Shown piece after piece: positions 54,585-63,907 of a stretch of DNA of 63,907 nucleotides. How positions within the stretch are numbered: position 1 is the stretch's first letter; the number at the start of each line of letters is the position of its first letter. The DNA is from Bacteroidales bacterium (lineage in GTDB: Bacteria > Bacteroidota > Bacteroidia > Bacteroidales > DTU049): assembly GCA_026418905.1 (NCBI GenBank), contig JAOAAK010000047.1, positions 1-63,907 of the forward strand. Reading direction: 5' to 3'. A program made the translations under genes and the position numbers. Under the pieces are notes generated by a model. The model saw nothing but the letters and a program-made list of their open reading frames with translations, ran no database searches and had not been told where the DNA came from.

Positions 54585-56870
54585 TTATTTTTCCAAAATC
54601 CATAAGTGTGAATCATTTAAAACTTTTTTCAATTTATTGATTTCTTGAATGGCTTCTGCTTTGTTGTCGAAAGAAATAAGAGATACCCTAAAAGTTCCTG
54701 TAGATGATAAGCCAATGATTTCAGCATTTTTAAAACCTTTTGCTATCACCTCATCTCTATATTTTTCAGCATTTTTTAAAAAAACAAAGCTGCCGCCAAT
54801 GATATGCCATTTTGGTTTGCGGGGTAATAAAACATCACTGTTCGAAACATTTTGCACAACATCTTGTTGACCTGGAAGAAAACCAACCACCTTAAATTCA
54901 ACACGACGATTAAGTTGCCGTCCTTCTTCGGTTTCGTTCGTGGCAATAGGTTGATAAAACCCATATCCCTTGTATGAAAGTCTCTGACTTTCAACTCCTG
55001 CAGCAATAAGATAATCAACCACAGCTTTAGCTCGCTCGTAAGAAAGTTTTAAATTATATTCCTCTGACCCACGATTATCTGTATGACCTGAAACTTCAAT
55101 TTTAATTGATGGCATTGTCTTTAATAAAGAAACTAAACGATCCAACTCGTTTTTAGATTCTGGGCGCAACGTTGCTTTGTCGTAATCAAAATAAATATTT
55201 CGCAAAACAAATCTGTCACCAATCCTTTCTCCAACATTAATTCGGTCAATAATAGTATCGGGCTTAACTTGAACAAATATGTTTCCCAAAAAATAAGGTC
55301 GTTGAAAACTTAAACTATCATACACATCGGAGGGAATTTCAAATTCATCTTCGATACGCAAACCAAAATCCGTTGTTAATTCCAATTTGTACTTTTTACC
55401 CACAGGGAGATTCATGGCATATTCACCTGTTTCTTTATCTGAGTAGGTTTGAGCTACCAACTCTCCAGTTTGAGCATTATATGCTCGGAGATAAGTTGGA
55501 ATAGGTTTGTTATTAATAGTATCCATAATCTTACCATGCAACGTAACCATGTTTTTCATTTCTTCAAGTTGTTCGATGGCGTAAATATCCCAGCTTCCTT
55601 TTCCATCTGGTTGATTGGTTGCATAAAATGCCAACTTTCCATCCTGAGTTGGGAAAAAGAAAACATCGTCTCCAGTAGTGTTGATAGGATAACCAACATT
55701 GATAGGTTTAGACCATTGACCTGATTTATCATCATATGTGACATAGAAAATATCGTAGCCTCCCATGGTTTCGTGCCCTTTAGAGCTAAAGTAAATAGTT
55801 TTCCCATCAGCCAGAATAAAAGGCGAATCTTCATCATATTCAGTGTTAAGGCTTGGACCGGCATTGACTGGTTTTGACCATTTGTTATGGCCTAATCTTT
55901 TTGAAATCCAAATGTCTTTACCTCCATATCCACCAGGACGATTAGAAACAAAATATAATGTTTGTCCATCGGGACTTAAACAAGCATGGTTTTCATAATA
56001 CTTCGAATTGATTTCTTGGGCTAGTTTTTCAGGAGCAGACCATTTACCATCAGCCCACGTACTCATATAAATATTACCATCTCCTTTATCGCTCTTGTAA
56101 ATGAAAAGATATTTTCCATCCCAGGATATACTGATAGAAGCTTCGTGGTTTGGAGTGTTAACACTTCCAGGTAAAGATCTGACATTGGATGCCTTAAAAC
56201 TCTTAGGGTCAAAGTCAGCTATGTATATGTCCTCGAAGAACATACCTTTTTCATCTTTTCTTCCACCTGTTGTTTCAGGACGCCGGGAAGTAAAAATGAT
56301 ATATGAAAGATCGGGGGCCATCACTGGTGCATATTCAGGATAAGCTGTATTTAAATCTCTAATAAGAGTCCTTCGAATCTTTAAAGGATATTTCATGATT
56401 TTTTTTGCATTCAAAGCAGTTTGAATTAAATAATCTGTTTCTTTAATCCACTCTTTATCTTCAACCGTTAAATAGTATTTGAATCGATTGAGATATTCGA
56501 TGGCCCTGTCAAAACTATCTTTTCGTAAATATGATTTGCCTAAAAAATAAAATGTAAATACTGAAGCTGTTTTTTCCTTAAAATCACCATAATAATCCGC
56601 TGATACATTTTGAGCTGCCCTATTAAGATACTCAATGGCTCGATTCTTATTTTCATCCACAAAATAATAACTTAGCCCCAACAAAAATTGAATATTTGAA
56701 TTGTTAGGAACCATGCTGTCCAACTTTAAAAGTATGGGAATAGCCTCATTGTAATTTTCGTAGAAAATATATGTATCAGCTAATTCGTATAGTTTCTTAA
56801 AACGAGCATTAAATTGTGAAGTTGATGGGAGAGCGATAACGATGAAAGCAATACATAACAATTTATTCAT
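54585..56870 (-). CDS. PorE-like TPR / PD40 / OmpA protein with SPOR tail
   Basis: 761-aa exported protein. Signal peptide; TPR-like repeats about 20-150 (NIQFLLGLSYYF, TFYFLGKSYLRKDSF); PD40 beta-propeller about 185-430 (GQTLYFVSNRPGGYGGKDIW, YFSSKGHETMGGYDIF); a carboxypeptidase-regulatory-like domain about 445-520; an OmpA C-terminal peptidoglycan-binding domain about 550-670 (IYFDYDKATLRPES, VSGHTDNRGSEEYNLKLS); and a SPOR-like tail (WHIIGGSFVFLKNAEKYRDE). The first four domains match PorE of the T9SS apparatus. The SPOR-like tail is an addition; compare the giant protein at 3655-8571. Start ATG at 56870. Confidence 0.87.
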   Translation of the reverse strand: MNKLLCIAFIVIALPSTSQFNARFKKLYELADTYIFYENYNEAIPILLKLDSMVPNNSNIQFLLGLSYYFVDENKNRAIEYLNRAAQNVSADYYGDFKEKTASVFTFYFLGKSYLRKDSFDRAIEYLNRFKYYLTVEDKEWIKETDYLIQTALNAKKIMKYPLKIRRTLIRDLNTAYPEYAPVMAPDLSYIIFTSRRPETTGGRKDEKGMFFEDIYIADFDPKSFKASNVRSLPGSVNTPNHEASISISWDGKYLFIYKSDKGDGNIYMSTWADGKWSAPEKLAQEINSKYYENHACLSPDGQTLYFVSNRPGGYGGKDIWISKRLGHNKWSKPVNAGPSLNTEYDEDSPFILADGKTIYFSSKGHETMGGYDIFYVTYDDKSGQWSKPINVGYPINTTGDDVFFFPTQDGKLAFYATNQPDGKGSWDIYAIEQLEEMKNMVTLHGKIMDTINNKPIPTYLRAYNAQTGELVAQTYSDKETGEYAMNLPVGKKYKLELTTDFGLRIEDEFEIPSDVYDSLSFQRPYFLGNIFVQVKPDTIIDRINVGERIGDRFVLRNIYFDYDKATLRPESKNELDRLVSLLKTMPSIKIEVSGHTDNRGSEEYNLKLSYERAKAVVDYLIAAGVESQRLSYKGYGFYQPIATNETEEGRQLNRRVEFKVVGFLPGQQDVVQNVSNSDVLLPRKPKWHIIGGSFVFLKNAEKYRDEVIAKGFKNAEIIGLSSTGTFRVSLISFDNKAEAIQEINKLKKVLNDSHLWILEK

Positions 56871-56879
56871 TTTTTTTTG

Positions 56880-56887
56880 CAAAATTA
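56880..56887 (-). promoter_or_regulatory. -7 promoter element for the PorE-like gene
   Basis: TAATTTTG on the minus strand, 10 bases before the ATG at 56870. Confidence 0.5.
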
Positions 56888-56892
56888 AGAGT

Positions 56893-56922
56893 TTTGTAAT
56901 TTAAAAAAGTTCTATAATTTTG
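56893..56922 (+). promoter_or_regulatory. Promoter of the tRNA-Pro / tRNA-Arg / cysteine synthase unit
   Basis: TTTG (56893-56896), 18 bases, TAATTTTG (56915-56922), 11 bases before the tRNA-Pro. Confidence 0.7.
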
Positions 56923-56933
56923 CAAATCTCAGA

Positions 56934-57008
56934 CGGGGCATAGCGTAGTCCGGCTAGCGCGCCTGCTTTGGGAGCAGGAGGTCGCAGGTTCAAATCCTGC
57001 TGCCCCGA
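56934..57008 (+). tRNA. tRNA-Pro (anticodon TGG)
   Basis: 75-base cloverleaf: acceptor CGGGGCA with TGCCCCG, anticodon loop TTTGGGA, T-arm GCAGGTTCAAATCCTGC. CCA not encoded. Confidence 0.97.
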
Positions 57009-57014
57009 CGATCC

Positions 57015-57088
57015 GGTCTCGTAGCTCAGCTGGATAGAGCAGCAGCCTTCTAAGCTGCGGGTCGCAGGTTCGAATCCTGCCGGGATCA
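57015..57088 (+). tRNA. tRNA-Arg (anticodon TCT)
   Basis: 74-base cloverleaf: acceptor GGTCTCG with CGGGATC (two G-T pairs), anticodon loop CTTCTAA, T-arm GCAGGTTCGAATCCTGC. Six bases separate it from the tRNA-Pro. Its discriminator base is followed by a single C and then the ATG of the cysteine synthase gene. Confidence 0.96.
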
Positions 57089-57089
57089 C

Positions 57090-57998
57090 ATGAATTCTTC
57101 TGATATTTTGAAATTGATTGGGCGAACTCCTTTAGTTGAATTAAAAAAAATTCAAGTATCGAACAGTGTTAGGGTTTTCTGTAAGCTCGAATACTTTAAC
57201 CCCGGTAAAAGTGTTAAAGATCGTGCTGCTTTTTTCATGATTGAAGGCGCTTATTCTAAAGGATTGTTATCATCTTCAAGTTACATTGTTGAACCAACGA
57301 GTGGAAACACCGGCATTGGTCTTGCTTGGATTTGTGCAACCCGAAAAATACCTCTTGTTCTTGTCATGCCGGAACACATGAGTGAAGAAAGAAAAAAACT
57401 CCTCAAATACTTGGGAGCTCAGCTCATACTAACTCCCAAAGAAAAAGGCATGAAAGGGGCTGTTGAAAAAGTACAGGATATTGTTCAATCTGACCCAAAA
57501 GCTGTCTTTCTTAATCAATTCAACAATTCCGATAACGTGCGAGCACATTATACTACCACTGGAGTGGAAATCTGGGAGGATCTTGGTAATCAGATTGATG
57601 TATTGGTAGCAGGAGTAGGAACTGCAGGAACTATAGTTGGTGTATCCACATTTATTAAAGAACGAAAAAAAATTCATGTTTTTGCTGTTGAACCCTTAGA
57701 AAGTCCTGTTCTTTCGGGCGGAAAGCCAGGACCTCACAATATTCCTGGTATCGGAGCTGGTTTTATTCCCGGTAATTACATCCCTTCACTTGTTGATGAA
57801 ATAATTACTGTTCCTTCAGAGGAAGCTTTGAAAACTGCAAAAACTTTGGCTTTGATCGAAGGAATACCATCAGGAATTTCCGGAGGAGCAAACGTTTGGG
57901 CAGCTTTACAAGTAGCTAATAGACCTGAATTCAAAAATAAAACCATCGTTACCTTTATTCCAGATTTTATCGAAAGATATTTATCTGTTATCTTATAA
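57090..57998 (+). CDS. Cysteine synthase (O-acetylserine sulfhydrylase)
   Basis: 302-aa PLP enzyme (CysK/CysM family) making cysteine from O-acetylserine and sulfide. GRTPLVEL, the PLP Lys43 in NPGKSVKDR, the substrate loop EPTSGNTGIG, GVGTAGTI and GISGGANVWAA are conserved. The usual C-terminal ERYLS is present but the residue before it, normally Gly (GERYLST), is Ile. The ATG is the second base after the tRNA-Arg discriminator base, with no room for its own promoter or ribosome binding site, so it should be co-transcribed with the tRNAs. Confidence 0.93.
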   Translation: MNSSDILKLIGRTPLVELKKIQVSNSVRVFCKLEYFNPGKSVKDRAAFFMIEGAYSKGLLSSSSYIVEPTSGNTGIGLAWICATRKIPLVLVMPEHMSEERKKLLKYLGAQLILTPKEKGMKGAVEKVQDIVQSDPKAVFLNQFNNSDNVRAHYTTTGVEIWEDLGNQIDVLVAGVGTAGTIVGVSTFIKERKKIHVFAVEPLESPVLSGGKPGPHNIPGIGAGFIPGNYIPSLVDEIITVPSEEALKTAKTLALIEGIPSGISGGANVWAALQVANRPEFKNKTIVTFIPDFIERYLSVIL

Positions 57999-58637
57999 GT
58001 AAACCTTCATCATTATTTTAAATTACGAGAAATGATATGCAACTAACATATGAATAACGACTCTATTATGCACTAACAAAAAACCATACATTTTTTGTAG
58101 GAAAAAATCCCTATCCAATTACCTCCATTTTCTTGCATCAATACAGCATAAATTACACTAAAAATCAGTCATTGCGGACAGTTTCATATAACAAAACAAA
58201 CCCAACTCAATCATAACTAACTTCACTGATTTCAGTCATTTAAAGCAAACAAAATATCTCAAACATCTTGTTATTGACATGCATTTAAAAAATTATTCTC
58301 ATGCTCATTGTCACAATAGAAACTTAATAGAAATTTATGTATTTTAATATAACCCCAAAATATTTACCCCTAATTTTTTTAAGAAAATTTTTTTTCTTTT
58401 TCCTTCTTTGCAAATTATGTTACACCATTTTCAGAAAATTATTACCCATCCTACTCAAAAAAATTATTTATTTGTTTACCTTTTCCCCATAACTTATTTA
58501 ATAAACAAAATTTGTTTAACTCACTTTAATTTCGAAACAAGTTTGAAACAAAAAAATTCACTCTTATCTTTCTCATGGAAACTTTTTTCATTCTGAATTG
58601 CTATGTAAGTATATTTTCACATGCACAAAAGCAATCC
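57999..58637. other. AT-rich intergenic stretch
   Basis: About 640 bases between the cysteine synthase and SBBP genes with no recognisable gene, RNA or repeat. A 62-codon open frame at 58408-58596 has a biased low-complexity composition and no recognised domain. Confidence 0.5.
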
Positions 58638-60803
58638 TCATGAGTCCTGACCCCCCAGATAAGTAGAATAAATCAATTTCTTTCCATTTTTATGTATTTT
58701 GGTAACAAAAACATCATTAAATCCTTTCATCATTTTTTGATATGCTCCAACTGTGACATCAAAAGTCCTTGATCTAGTACAACCTGCTACATATGCATTA
58801 CCTGTCCCATCAATAGCTATACCCCAACTCCATTCATCACTATCTCCACCTAAATAAGTAGAATATATTAAGCCTGTTCCTAAAATGTTCAACTTCGTAA
58901 CAAAAACATCTTTATCTCCTCCTCCATGTTTTCTTTCATATGCTTTTGAGGTTACATCAAAATCGTTCGATTCAGTAAAACCTGTTATGAAGACAAAACC
59001 AGCATTATTTACGGCTATATCAGAACTCCATTCATTGCCGTTTCCACCTAAATAGGTAGAATACACCAACTCAGTACCTACATTGTTAAGCTTCGTAATA
59101 AAAGCATCATATCCTCCCGCATTCTTTTCTTGATATGCTCCTTTTGTTACATCGAAATCCGTCGATTCAGTAAAACCCGTTACATATGCATAACCCTTAT
59201 CGTCCACTGTGATACCCCAACCCCATTCATTTCCACTTCCTCCTAAATAAGTAGAATACACCAAACTTGTACCATCACTATTTAGCTTCGTCACAAACAC
59301 ATCATATTTCTCTCCTCCATGCTTCACCTGATACGCCCCCACAGTCACGTCAAAATCTACCGATTTCGTCCATCCCGTTATATATGCACAACCTGTACCA
59401 TCCACAGCAATGTCATAACCATAATCAGCATCGCTTCCCCCCAGATAGGTTGAATACATCAAAGCTGTACCCGAACTGTTAAGTTTTGCAACGTAAGCAT
59501 CTTTTTCCTTTCCTGCTATCGTTTGATAAGCCCCAGATGTCACATCGAAATCATCCGATTCAGTCAAACCCGTCACGTAGACACAACCCTTATTATCCAC
59601 AGAAATATCGGATCCTGCATCATTCTCACTACCCCCAAGAAAGGTTGAATACATCAATCTTGTACCTGTATTGTTGAGCTTAGCAATAAAAGCATCTCCT
59701 TTCCCTCCATACCATGTCTGAAATGAACCAATTGTTACATTAAAATCGGCAGAATAAGTTTCACCAGTGATATAAACACAACCCATACTATCGACAGTTA
59801 TTCCAAAAGAATAGTCATTACGCTTTCCACCCAAATAAGTTGAATACACCAATGCTGTGCCAGAATTATTTAATTTTGTAACAAACACATCATATTCACC
59901 ATCATTCTTATTTTGAAATGATCCTATCGTTACATCATAATCCTCAGACCAGGTATAACCCGTTATGTACGCACAACCAGTACCATCCACTACTATATCT
60001 TCAGCTTGTTCATCAAAATATTGTCCAAAACTCCTAAAATGCATGAGTGGTTTAATTACCAATCTCCCATGGTAATCGCATTTCTCGATTCCAAAACCCC
60101 ATGTACGTTCTCTTTCTTCGTACCAACTTTTTACTAACACACCATCATTATCATACGTTAGTAAATTCTCTATTTCCACCATTCCAAATTGTGTTTCAAA
60201 AGTCAAACTTCCATTCTCTTTTTTAATTCGATCCATACCACGTAAAGTAAATTTTATTTTATTTACATTTCCTTCCTCACGCACTATCCATTCATAGCGC
60301 AACTCACCACCGTCAAAATAATATCTTACATCAATCCCATCGTACACATCCTTCAAAATTACCTCTCGAAATAAACCTACCTCTCTCACATGTCCACCAT
60401 CGTTTGTTAAGTAATTATAATAACCACCTGCCCTTCTCCTACCTTCTCGAACAGGGTTTAAATTATGTTCCTTAAACTCCATCAATACCCGATGTCCTGC
60501 CACAACATCTTCGTATAACTCCATCTCATCTATCCATTTTGTTCCTTTTCCCTCCCCTACTTCTCTGATCCTTTCTTCAGATCGATAAAACGTATAATTT
60601 ATTCCATATTTTGTAATCCACACATTTATACCATGCATTTTACATAAATAAAATACTTCATCAGGCCACTGACCTTTGTTCTCTATGAAATAAGTCCGCT
60701 CCAATTTTGACACACTTTTTAGCACAAGCAGACTTTCACTAATAGGTTTTCCTGCGACTACACCAAAGCTAATAATTCCAAAAATCAAAAATACGTTATT
60801 CAT
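58638..60803 (-). CDS. SBBP-repeat (seven-bladed propeller) exported protein
   Basis: 721-aa protein. A signal peptide-like start, an N-terminal beta-rich domain (about 35-240, RTYFIENKGQWPDEVFYL and YGINYTFYRSEE) typical of SBBP proteins, then seven near-identical repeats of 65-66 residues, each with YITG/YVTG and STYLGG. Seven repeats make one complete propeller; the last ends at STYLGGQDS just before the stop. No T9SS sorting domain follows. Such proteins are exported surface or cell-envelope proteins of unknown function. Promoter element at 60822-60829. Confidence 0.82.
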   Translation of the reverse strand: MNNVFLIFGIISFGVVAGKPISESLLVLKSVSKLERTYFIENKGQWPDEVFYLCKMHGINVWITKYGINYTFYRSEERIREVGEGKGTKWIDEMELYEDVVAGHRVLMEFKEHNLNPVREGRRRAGGYYNYLTNDGGHVREVGLFREVILKDVYDGIDVRYYFDGGELRYEWIVREEGNVNKIKFTLRGMDRIKKENGSLTFETQFGMVEIENLLTYDNDGVLVKSWYEERERTWGFGIEKCDYHGRLVIKPLMHFRSFGQYFDEQAEDIVVDGTGCAYITGYTWSEDYDVTIGSFQNKNDGEYDVFVTKLNNSGTALVYSTYLGGKRNDYSFGITVDSMGCVYITGETYSADFNVTIGSFQTWYGGKGDAFIAKLNNTGTRLMYSTFLGGSENDAGSDISVDNKGCVYVTGLTESDDFDVTSGAYQTIAGKEKDAYVAKLNSSGTALMYSTYLGGSDADYGYDIAVDGTGCAYITGWTKSVDFDVTVGAYQVKHGGEKYDVFVTKLNSDGTSLVYSTYLGGSGNEWGWGITVDDKGYAYVTGFTESTDFDVTKGAYQEKNAGGYDAFITKLNNVGTELVYSTYLGGNGNEWSSDIAVNNAGFVFITGFTESNDFDVTSKAYERKHGGGDKDVFVTKLNILGTGLIYSTYLGGDSDEWSWGIAIDGTGNAYVAGCTRSRTFDVTVGAYQKMMKGFNDVFVTKIHKNGKKLIYSTYLGGQDS
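58640..60020 (-). repeat. Seven tandem ~195-bp coding repeats (SBBP)
   Basis: Repeating units encoding YITGxT...DVFVTKLN...YSTYLGG, period about 195-198 bases, conserved at DNA level. They could recombine and change the repeat number. Confidence 0.85.
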
Positions 60804-60821
60804 TTTAAAATGATTTTAAAA

Positions 60822-60829
60822 CAAAAATA
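60822..60829 (-). promoter_or_regulatory. -7 promoter element for the SBBP gene
   Basis: TATTTTTG on the minus strand, 19 bases before the ATG at 60803. Confidence 0.4.
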
Positions 60830-61224
60830 AAAATTTATAACAAAAAATATTTTGGTACATATGTTTTAATCTAATTTATCTTTTTAAGCTATTCAAACTA
60901 AAATTTTCATATTCATTTTGTTGTTAAAATATCCTTAAAATGCTAACATTCTTATCCAAATTTTTAAAACCAACATTTTGGAAAGCCAATATTTATTCAT
61001 CTTTTATTTTTCCCCCTCCAATTCCATGCAAAATTTCAGCTAGCAATAGCAAATCACGTATATAGAAGAAATAAAAAGGTCTCGCTGCAATTCAATTTTT
61101 CTCATTTCAAGTTTTGTGAAATAAGTGTCGTGTAATTTAATTGGTTCCCCATCTTGCTGGCTCAAATTTTATGAGTTTTTTTTAAAATATTTCAGTAAAC
61201 TTTAAGTATGTTTTCGTAAAATTT

Positions 61225-61232
61225 TATTTTTG
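61225..61232 (+). promoter_or_regulatory. -7 promoter element for the M1 aminopeptidase
   Basis: TATTTTTG, 8 bases before the ATG at 61240, implying almost no leader. Confidence 0.45.
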
Positions 61233-61239
61233 AAAAAAA

Positions 61240-63165
61240 ATGAAAAACTTCCTTATTATTTTTTTCATCATCAATTTGGTCACATGGGGGCAAGGTGATT
61301 TTACGTGGGTTGAAACGGAATCTGAACAGAAAAAAGCCTTGATAAGTCAATTTTACCATAAATCAAGAAAAACGGCTGGAGCCAACATAGATGTGAAGCA
61401 CATTCGATTTCATTGGAAAGTAGATCCCGCGATTCATTACATCAATGGATTTGTTAAATATACGTTTCGGTCACTGGAAGACTTGCAGAGTACAACCTTA
61501 CTTTTGGACAATCCTCTTGTCATTGATAGCATCATCTATCATGGACAAACAATAACCTACTCTCGCCCGAACGATACCCTTGTTATAAATTTTCCTACCA
61601 CTATTTTAACCGGGCAGATTGATAGTTTTACTATTGTATATCAAGGTGCCCCTAACACATCTGGGTTTGGTTCTTTTGAAACCTCAACCCATGGCAACAA
61701 CATACCTGTAATGTGGACACTCTCTCAACCATATGGTGCCTATGAATGGTGGCCTACTAAAAATGACCTTAAAGACAAAATTGATTCCATTGATGTTATC
61801 ATTACCATGCCCTCTGCATTCGTAGCTGCAAGTCACGGACTTCTTTTTAAAGATACAGTTGTTCAAGGACAAAGAGTTATGCACTGGAAGCACCGATATC
61901 CCATCGTCTCTTATTTAGTGGCATTTGCCGTATCCAACTACGAACGACAAAATAACCAGGTACAATTATCACAAGGATCTCTTCCTTTAGTGAATTATGT
62001 TTACCCTGAACATGCTCAAGATGCACTTAATGCCATTTTTGCACTCAAGCTGGTTATGCAGTTTTATGATTCGCTCGTAGGACCATATCCCTTCATGCAA
62101 GAAAAATACGGCCAAGCAGAATTCAACTGGGGCGGTGGTATGGAGCATCAAACTATAAGTTTCATAGGAAATATGACAAATTATGAACTATGTGCCCACG
62201 AGCTCATACACATGTGGTTTGGAGATGCCATCACTTGTGGAAGCTGGCAAGATATTTGGCTTAACGAAGGGTTCGCCACCTATTTTACAGCTTTAAATTA
62301 CGAACGTTTCTTTCCGACTACCTATTGGATGCCATGGAAAATCCATGCCATTCAGTATATTACTTCAGAACCTTATGGTAGCGTTTATGTATACGATACC
62401 ACTGACGTTTATCGCATTTTCGACGGAAGATTAAGTTATTACAAAGGCGCATATGTACTTCATATGCTACGGTGGATACTTAGCGATTCTACATTTTTCT
62501 CTGCCATAAGAGCCTACTACGCCAGTCCTCAGTTTAAATATGGTTTTGTTCGAACCGAAGATTTCAAGCATTTTCTAGAACAACATTCTGGTAAAAACTT
62601 GACAGAATTTTTCAACGATTGGGTTTACGGTGAAGGACATCCCATATACTCATGGGAACTATATTACCATAACGATGACAGCACAAAAATCATTCTTCAT
62701 CAATCAACGTCACATCCATCAGTTGATTTTTTTGAAATGCCTGTACCTGTTTATTTTTTTAAAGGCAATCAGATATATTCCATCGTACTTAACCATACTC
62801 AGCCACATCAAACCTTCTACGTTCCTTTTCCTTTTCCAGATTCCATTCAATTAGATCCGCAGCTCTGGATTTTAAAACAATTGCCAGTTCAAGGAATTGT
62901 TGGCACTGATGCTTTGCCAGAACAACCCCTCTTTAAGTTATATCCTAATCCAGCCGATAAAGAATCATCCATCAACATAGAATTTCCATACGTCGGACAA
63001 ATCAGTATTATTAGCACAGACGGAAAAGAAGTACTTACACTATGGCACCAACAAAAAAGTATCCTAGATCCAAATGTGTTAAAACCTGGTGTTTATTACA
63101 TATCATTCAAAAATGAAAGAATTACAGCTTTTCATAAACTAATCATTTCTAACACAAAAAATTAA
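61240..63165 (+). CDS. M1 family metallopeptidase, T9SS type A cargo
   Basis: 641-aa exported zinc aminopeptidase-like protein. Signal peptide; substrate motif GGGMEHQ (normally GAMEN); zinc site HELIH at residues 320-324 with the third ligand Glu343, exactly 18 residues further on, in WLNEGFATYFTA; and the transition-state Tyr within YYKGAYVLHML. The C-terminal type A sorting domain (LYPNPADKESSINIEFP) sends it through T9SS. It is likely to digest extracellular peptides. Promoter at 61225. Confidence 0.92.
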   Translation: MKNFLIIFFIINLVTWGQGDFTWVETESEQKKALISQFYHKSRKTAGANIDVKHIRFHWKVDPAIHYINGFVKYTFRSLEDLQSTTLLLDNPLVIDSIIYHGQTITYSRPNDTLVINFPTTILTGQIDSFTIVYQGAPNTSGFGSFETSTHGNNIPVMWTLSQPYGAYEWWPTKNDLKDKIDSIDVIITMPSAFVAASHGLLFKDTVVQGQRVMHWKHRYPIVSYLVAFAVSNYERQNNQVQLSQGSLPLVNYVYPEHAQDALNAIFALKLVMQFYDSLVGPYPFMQEKYGQAEFNWGGGMEHQTISFIGNMTNYELCAHELIHMWFGDAITCGSWQDIWLNEGFATYFTALNYERFFPTTYWMPWKIHAIQYITSEPYGSVYVYDTTDVYRIFDGRLSYYKGAYVLHMLRWILSDSTFFSAIRAYYASPQFKYGFVRTEDFKHFLEQHSGKNLTEFFNDWVYGEGHPIYSWELYYHNDDSTKIILHQSTSHPSVDFFEMPVPVYFFKGNQIYSIVLNHTQPHQTFYVPFPFPDSIQLDPQLWILKQLPVQGIVGTDALPEQPLFKLYPNPADKESSINIEFPYVGQISIISTDGKEVLTLWHQQKSILDPNVLKPGVYYISFKNERITAFHKLIISNTKN

Positions 63166-63246
63166 TTTTCAAGTGTTGTATTTACAAATCTCATTTGCAC
63201 AAAGACCATAATAATTTGTATTTTCATCAATCTAATTGTACCCAAA

Positions 63247-63353
63247 TGTTAACCGAACAAAAACTCGATTAAATTATCTTACGACTTGATTATCAGAATT
63301 TTATTTTTTCATTTTTTCATATCATATGAAAAAATGTTAACCTATTGTTAACC
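63247..63353. repeat. Three TGTTAACC direct repeats
   Basis: Copies at 63247-63254, 63335-63342 and 63346-63353, all upstream of the SUMF1-like gene. Confidence 0.5.
63311..63335. repeat. 12-bp perfect dyad ATTTTTTCATAT / ATATGAAAAAAT
   Basis: Arms 63311-63322 and 63324-63335 with a single central C. It is an operator candidate or a weak terminator for the aminopeptidase gene. Confidence 0.5.
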
Positions 63354-63396
63354 TTAAATTGCCCGTAAACCAAAATTTTCCCAAGTTATGCAGTAT

Positions 63397-63404
63397 TATA
63401 TTTG
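63397..63404 (+). promoter_or_regulatory. -7 promoter element for the SUMF1-like gene
   Basis: TATATTTG, 13 bases before the ATG at 63417. Confidence 0.5.
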
Positions 63405-63416
63405 TAAAAAAAAGAA

Positions 63417-63907
63417 ATGAAATCATTGTTTAATATTTTATTGCTTTCAGTCATATCAGGTAATGTTCTGGCAGGAAACATTCAAGTTAGTAATGCCAGA
63501 TTCACAGGTAAAGATACAGCAACCAATACTGTTTACGTTACTTTTGATTTAACTTGGGATATGTCTTGGAGAAGGCCAGCCCCAAGAAATTGGGATGCAG
63601 CATGGGTTTTTGTCAAATTTAGACGAAATCCTGTCCTCAATGTATGGGAACATATGGTTTTTCCTTTTGTCGATGGAACAGGCACGGGGGATGGTCATAT
63701 TCCTGCTCCAGGATCGGTCATCAGAAGTAGCAATGATAATGGAGCAGGTGGTTCGTTCGGAGTTTTTATTTATGGAAGCAGTAATTTCGAACCTCAAACA
63801 GTTAACTATACTAATGTTAGACTCAGATGGAATTACGCAAGTCAAGGAGTTTCCGACTGGGATAGCGTAGAAATATGTGTTTTCGCTATCGAAATGGTAT
63901 ATATTCC
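63417..63907 (+). CDS. SUMF1-like protein, N-terminal part (cut by window end)
   Basis: First 163 codons only; it runs off the window. A signal peptide (MKSLFNILLLSVISGNVLAG) is followed by a beta-rich domain with WDAAWVFVKFR, LRWNYASQGVSDWDSVEI and the ending VFAIEMVYI. In Bacteroidota this front domain commonly precedes a formylglycine-generating-enzyme (SUMF1/EgtB) domain, which would begin after the cut. Calling it that family is inference from the pattern IEMVYI. The ATG at 63417 is supported by the promoter element at 63397. Confidence 0.65.
   Translation, partial: MKSLFNILLLSVISGNVLAGNIQVSNARFTGKDTATNTVYVTFDLTWDMSWRRPAPRNWDAAWVFVKFRRNPVLNVWEHMVFPFVDGTGTGDGHIPAPGSVIRSSNDNGAGGSFGVFIYGSSNFEPQTVNYTNVRLRWNYASQGVSDWDSVEICVFAIEMVYI

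Follow-up and report, generated by a model that had tools for sequence, protein, structure and literature searches.

A cysteine synthase gene that starts one base after a tRNA-Arg gene in a Bacteroidales genome

The window, a stretch of 63,907 nucleotides from a Bacteroidales genome, carries on its plus strand two tRNA genes followed directly by a protein gene (56934-57998). Infernal places tRNA-Pro(TGG) at 56934..57008, with A57008 as the discriminator and C57009 behind it at position 74, and tRNA-Arg(TCT), with anticodon UCU, at 57015..57088, where pairing of 57015-57021 with 57081-57087 in the acceptor stem leaves A57088 as the discriminator. A lone C (57089), occupying tRNA position 74 and forming the first base of CCA, is all that stands between this discriminator and the ATG (57090-57092) of cysK, which encodes a cysteine synthase A of 302 aa (57090..57998). 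The Infernal models stop at the discriminators and ARAGORN adds one base to each tRNA (57009 and 57089). The tRNA 3′ end abuts cysK with no leader apart from this one base, and the positions that the first-pass annotation had given for discriminator, C and start codon are correct by both Infernal and our reading of the sequence. No tRNA is found 3′ of cysK in the window, so the gene is not tRNA-bounded on both sides. Antisense to both tRNAs, a 62-aa ORF lies on the minus strand at 56901-57089; ORFs of this kind are often misannotated as proteins. We also considered, and rejected, an element that had integrated at the 3′ end of the tRNA: a search of the window for the 23-base tRNA end, allowing up to 3 mismatches, gave no second copy and thus no attachment repeat.

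The cysK product scores 386.6 bits against the NCBIfam model for cysteine synthase A (TIGR01139), above its cut-off of 350.95, and is the sole match of its protein search (E up to 0.001) in a 2.1 Mb draft genome of 47 contigs that is 97% complete. In assigning its start codon, we compared 37 related loci: 8 of the same family, and 29 of the order outside that family. In 36 of them the nearest in-frame ATG lies at residue –1 to +3 of our cysK (the exception, L165, has it at –5), and in 35 the range narrows to –1 to +2. Upstream in the same frame, no ATG, GTG or TTG occurs before a TAA at 57051-57053. Because the related loci agree and the frame offers no earlier start, the ATG at 57090 is, by homology, the expected start of cysK; a true start further downstream, which had been named as a possible objection, is thus at odds with 36 of the 37 related loci.

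A promoter motif of the Bacteroidota type lies ahead of tRNA-Pro at 56894..56922 on the plus strand, consisting of TTG (56894-56896), an 18-nt spacer and TAATTTTG (56915-56922). The published motif has TAnnTTTG at –7 and TTTG near –33 (PMC7366714). Taking the distance from motif to transcription start as 4-5 nt, as is done in PMC6847099, transcription would be expected to start at about 56927-56928, 6-7 nt before tRNA-Pro. By eye, TAATTTTG is likewise seen ahead of tRNA-Pro in five loci of g4, a genus of the same family, and TACCTTTG in the relative G001. Our search, limited to the strict Bacteroidota motif and an E. coli-type consensus, found TTG-N18-TAATTTTG to be the only strict TAnnTTTG on the plus strand in 56850-57200, and no E. 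coli-type site in the same interval, either between the tRNAs or immediately 5′ of them. No terminator-like site was found in 56000-59000. The two tRNA genes and cysK therefore show the sequence features of a tRNA-mRNA operon, namely the same strand, adjacency, a promoter motif only 5′ of the tRNAs and no terminator between. With a single promoter motif and no terminator found, co-transcription of tRNA-Pro, tRNA-Arg and cysK is likely, and one promoter probably serves all three, in line with the earlier view that a promoter exists only before tRNA-Pro. Alternatively, cysK could have a weak promoter of its own inside the tRNA genes, giving a leader that overlaps tRNA-Arg and expression independent of tRNA processing. 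Weak sites or those of alternative sigma factors would be missed by a strict motif and an E. coli-type scan, a point in favour of this idea. However, the interval holds no TAnnTTTG but that at 56915 and no E. coli-type site, and the constrained, GC-rich tRNA sequence would leave little room for an AT-rich promoter, so that we regard a separate cysK promoter as unlikely.

The first-pass annotation had read the arrangement as coupling a sulfur-amino-acid enzyme to tRNA production, and had proposed comparing the junction across related genomes. This comparison does not bear the coupling out. In the 29 best order-level cysK loci, no tRNA lies 5′ of the gene within the upstream sequence covered (at most 1.5 kb, and shorter for L085); the single tRNA found among these loci lies 3′ of the gene on the opposite strand. 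The 8 family-level loci likewise show no 5′ tRNA within the fetched flank. These 8 come from 10 other genomes of the family with a match, with G002 and G006 left out, and loci of other phyla are excluded from the count. A conserved cysK-tRNA pairing was rejected on this count (0 of 37 related loci). In three g4 genomes (L158, L160 and L161), a distant cysK copy has tRNA-Ser(TGA) just 3′ of it on the same strand. The Pro-Arg pair, for its part, is followed by another gene in g4: in five of six genomes an outer-membrane gene (217-220 aa; PF13568 in the G010 copy) begins 6 nt past the discriminator. The sixth genome, G007 (83% complete), gives only a partial tRNA-Arg-like match. A relative of this outer-membrane gene stands behind Pro-Arg in G001 at a gap of 92 nt, and the nearest relative in our own genome is on another contig with no tRNA nearby. 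It is hard to see in these loci a regulatory device tying cysteine synthesis to tRNA supply. The promoter motif common to the tRNAs and cysK would suit such a device, but with no 5′ tRNA at any of the 29 order and 8 family loci, tRNA-Ser after the gene instead in three family loci and a different gene behind Pro-Arg from one genus to another, we consider it scarcely credible.

Our search returned no other genome of the same genus, so a single genome represents the exact cysK junction. A false assembly join through a tRNA-Arg sequence common to other species has to be weighed. The draft genome is split into 47 contigs, and in G085, of the same order (L099), tRNA-Arg plus the C lie within a 77-base identical stretch, a possible substrate for such a join. 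Yet the sequence downstream (58001-63907) has a tetranucleotide correlation of 0.786 with its own genome, against 0.396 to 0.51 with four relatives, and the cysK GC3 of 0.257 fits its neighbours; cysK alone (0.9 kb) discriminates poorly by tetranucleotides (0.596 own vs 0.58 for G001). Also against a false join, the 721-aa protein encoded at 58638-60803 matches 18 other stretches of this genome. Together these make a false join very improbable. The 721-aa protein, on the minus strand, itself contains repeated stretches. In another genome, G062, two altered tRNA-Arg copies (L098:6-257, minus strand) have a CTA anticodon with mismatched acceptor and anticodon stems, and are called tRNA-Pyl by ARAGORN; they are probably degenerate duplicates.

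Short distances between a tRNA and the next gene recur elsewhere in the genome. Counting ORFs of 60 aa or more as gene starts, 12 of 30 tRNA units lead to a same-strand gene start within 45 nt with no terminator flagged, or 11 of 30 if one by-eye hairpin with a T run is taken as a terminator. The gaps are 1 nt for cysK, 4 for lipB, 15 for an argD-like gene and for rpsT, 16 for tig, 18 for asnS, 21 for an unnamed 223-aa gene, 23 for rlmN, 24 for a tolQ-like gene, 25 for secE, 39 for an unnamed 487-aa ORF and 42 for tuf, where secE and tuf were named by eye and several names rest on profile matches under curated cut-offs. The same test gave 9 of 32 units in G003, 7 of 26 in G010 and 5 of 19 in G001, two of the last being doubtful short ORFs. 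For G012, which belongs to another family, it gave 2 of 27, one of them doubtful. The tRNA sets of these relatives are incomplete (39 of 40 in G003, 30 of 36 in G012, 24 of 37 in G001 and 34 of 39 in G010). In G012 a gene lies within 120 nt of 12 tRNA units, and 9 of these have a terminator flagged. The cysK junction may thus be an extreme form of the tRNA-mRNA operon in a family in which short tRNA-gene gaps appear to be a habit. At a given junction, gap lengths differ between genera: lipB lies at 4 nt here and at 35 in G001, rpsT at 15, 18, 23 or 29, and the outer-membrane gene at 6 nt in G003 and G010 vs 92 in G001. By this comparison of gap lengths, the exact one-base spacing is not a conserved trait. 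The lipB junction (C29:86512-86583, L139) consists of tRNA-Thr(CGT) with an encoded CCA, one more A and then the lipB ATG; the same tRNA-Thr(CGT) stands 35 nt before a lipB-like gene, named by eye, in G001.

Very short leaders look ordinary in this window, as predicted leaders of <10 nt occur in 4 of the 15 genes with a strict –7 motif. Of the 41 genes in the window, these 15 carry the motif no more than 150 nt upstream, against about 5 expected from its rate in the window. Published figures are low and count against a leaderless cysK mRNA: in B. thetaiotaomicron only about 3.7% of leaders are <10 nt (PMC7366714), and in F. psychrophilum 5.5% of mRNAs have no leader (PMC9723704).

The string formed by a tRNA end, C and ATG is found in 89 of 296 Bacteroidota genomes. 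We examined 112 string sites in 110 loci, a set that includes an accidental site of our own genome (L169) and excludes the cysK site itself; many of the listed sites outside the set are identical to examined strings, in family f103, and a few are near contig ends. An ARAGORN tRNA precedes 89 of the 112, and at only 3 of these 89 was an intact gene of a recognisable kind found to begin. All three encode GIY-YIG proteins (PF01541), starting at tRNA-Ser-C-ATG one base after tRNA-Ser on the minus strand, in genomes G132, G269 and G135 of three families (L331:564-803, L341:537-803 and L350:564-803). The proteins are 37-59% identical to one another. Their relatives in phage and plasmid collections amount to 4 weak phage records and 1 plasmid record, with none in viral contigs, and these small genes are possibly mobile genes that settle at tRNA-Ser ends. 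Other candidates were rejected: L366, PfkB-like with a broken frame; L369, without a Pfam match; nine loci (L178, L179, L193, L196, L338, L343, L368, L378 and L385) judged by eye to be short, unconvincing or running through another tRNA; and ORFs such as L312 and L337, which are not behind a called tRNA. The notion of widespread genuine genes at tRNA-C-ATG was likewise dropped, with 3 of 89 sites heading an intact gene and the rest, mostly judged by eye, mostly chance. In sum, the string is common and mostly accidental, and a conserved 302-codon gene at it is not common; the exact one-base spacing appears to have arisen with different genes, but seldom.

In a further explanation, the junction is a tolerated accident of genome compaction: cysK would be transcribed by read-through, the tRNA 3′ end matured mainly by exonucleases following a downstream cut, and cysK poorly expressed or started at a downstream TTG. 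The varying gaps at single junctions (lipB 4 vs 35, the outer-membrane gene 6 vs 92) and the in-frame TTG codons at 57108 and 57114 (residues 7 and 9) would fit. On the other hand, the cysK gene is intact, its search found no second match in the genome, a TTG start would cost residues that relatives have (ATG at –1 to +2 in 35 of 37 loci), and the exact tRNA-C-ATG spacing is common to three GIY-YIG genes in other families. An accident of this kind seems rather unlikely.

The identity of the single base deserves attention. In our genome a C directly follows the discriminator in 38 of 38 tRNA genes (31855, 51828, 57009 and 57089 in the window), and the next two bases vary. A full CCA follows in 3 of 38, one being the tRNA-Thr(CGT) before lipB. 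The earlier claim that none of the window's tRNAs encodes CCA thus stands for all four of them, and genome-wide three tRNAs do encode it. Among relatives, C74 was read in 24 of 24 tRNAs in G001 and 30 of 30 in G012, and is partly lost in genus g4 (25 of 39 in G003, 18 of 34 in G010). A mixed sample of relatives has it in 46 of 50, the four exceptions being tRNA-Pro of g4. A pattern for tRNA ends, applied to 99 genomes of the phylum, gave 3763 matches with C vs 1126 with another base, counts that include chance non-tRNA matches, and by these counts C is commoner than the other bases at position 74 in all 99. Since it is encoded in every tRNA gene of this genome and predominates in the phylum sample, C57089 is best read as tRNA position 74, and is probably no mRNA leader. 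If the tRNA keeps this C, AUG would be the very start of the cysK mRNA. A conserved C74 may also have another reason, namely contact with loop L15 of RNase P RNA.

The first-pass annotation had RNase Z cut after the discriminator and free an mRNA that begins C-AUG. Of this, the junction of tRNA end and gene holds, and the C is reassigned to position 74, with the cut possibly after it. Cuts between the two Cs of CCA are described in two actinobacteria, P. acnes, where no obvious RNase Z is reported (PMC3848588), and in S. coelicolor (PMC4681348). In B. subtilis, a U no more than 2 nt from the discriminator stimulates RNase Z (PMC10100781). Such a U is absent at the tRNA-Arg/cysK junction (C, A, then U) and in 25 of 38 own tRNAs, which, by the B. 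subtilis rule, counts against a simple RNase Z cut here. The genome encodes homologues of both enzymes on which tRNA punctuation depends, with activity predicted from homology: an RNase P RNA of class A, and an RNase Z homologue (L149) that covers profile positions 2-299 of 302 at 284 bits, just under the curated 293.

We consider it probable, if well short of certain, that tRNA-Pro, tRNA-Arg and cysK form one unit in which cutting out the tRNAs frees a leaderless cysK mRNA. The unit would be transcribed from the Bacteroidota-type promoter at 56894-56922, and both tRNAs would be excised by RNase P together with a nuclease that acts at tRNA 3′ ends, either RNase Z or its equivalent. The 3′ cut of tRNA-Arg would fall after A57088 or, more likely, after C57089, and the freed cysK mRNA, beginning C-AUG or AUG, would be translated without a leader. 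The uncut transcript would be a poor template, because the folded tRNA would sit where the ribosome has to bind. Against the model, the tRNA lacks a full cloverleaf in the predicted minimum-energy fold of 57015-57140: the 3′ strand of its acceptor stem pairs with bases early in cysK, and the cysK AUG is partly paired; only the centroid fold keeps the acceptor and T arm. The anatomy, promoter motif, missing terminator, start codon and recurrence of short gaps are read from the sequence, and from them we infer co-transcription, cleavage position and leaderless translation. On these grounds, tRNA maturation that makes a leaderless cysK mRNA appears the most likely mechanism.

A broader hypothesis is that bacterial tRNA punctuation operates in part of the Bacteroidota, where a cut after C74 would routinely make mRNA 5′ ends, including those of truly leaderless, AUG-first mRNAs of such housekeeping genes as cysK and lipB, and tRNA processing enzymes would be obligate makers of mRNA. 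We put this forward tentatively, as possible rather than probable. If true, ordinary enzymes would need tRNA 3′ processing for their expression, and the mRNA ends of tRNA-adjacent genes would not be findable by promoter search. The encoded C74 of Bacteroidota tRNA genes would have a consequence, perhaps a purpose, and such junctions would let leaderless translation be studied in a natural setting, in a phylum where Shine-Dalgarno sites are hardly used. Mitochondrial tRNA punctuation would then have a simple and direct parallel in bacteria.

There are three known systems with which the junction can be compared. Leaderless mRNAs of actinobacteria and mycobacteria, and those cut by MazF in E. coli, have the AUG at or near the 5′ end and no ribosome-binding leader (PMC3848588, PMC4681348, PMC4633059). 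AUG as the true start is likewise found for cysK by homology. The ends of those mRNAs come from a transcription start or a toxin nuclease, whereas the cysK end would come from tRNA maturation. Among the matches listed from open-licence literature, no description of tRNA-made leaderless mRNAs in Bacteroidota was found. In bacterial tRNA-mRNA operons, tRNAs and a protein gene share one transcript and are parted by processing. In E. coli, tRNA genes lie upstream of tufB, and tuf of our genome also follows a tRNA (42 nt). To our knowledge, known bacterial operons of this kind keep a leader and a Shine-Dalgarno site, and the cysK gap is one base. The Salmonella operon of yifK with the argX-hisR-leuT-proM tRNAs differs from cysK in that the yifK mRNA lies upstream of the tRNAs (PMC3879156). 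A third likeness is to mitochondrial tRNA punctuation (for example PMC8437803, PMC9958991, PMC10941002, PMC4633059), where a tRNA abuts the coding sequence, and as there, excision would free an mRNA whose 5′ end is at or next to the AUG. The cysK case is unlike it in being bacterial and in having a tRNA only 5′ of the gene, with excision and leaderless translation as predicted steps. The cysK junction is most aptly seen as the bacterial counterpart to tRNA punctuation and as an extreme form of known tRNA-mRNA operons, in a lineage where these are frequent.
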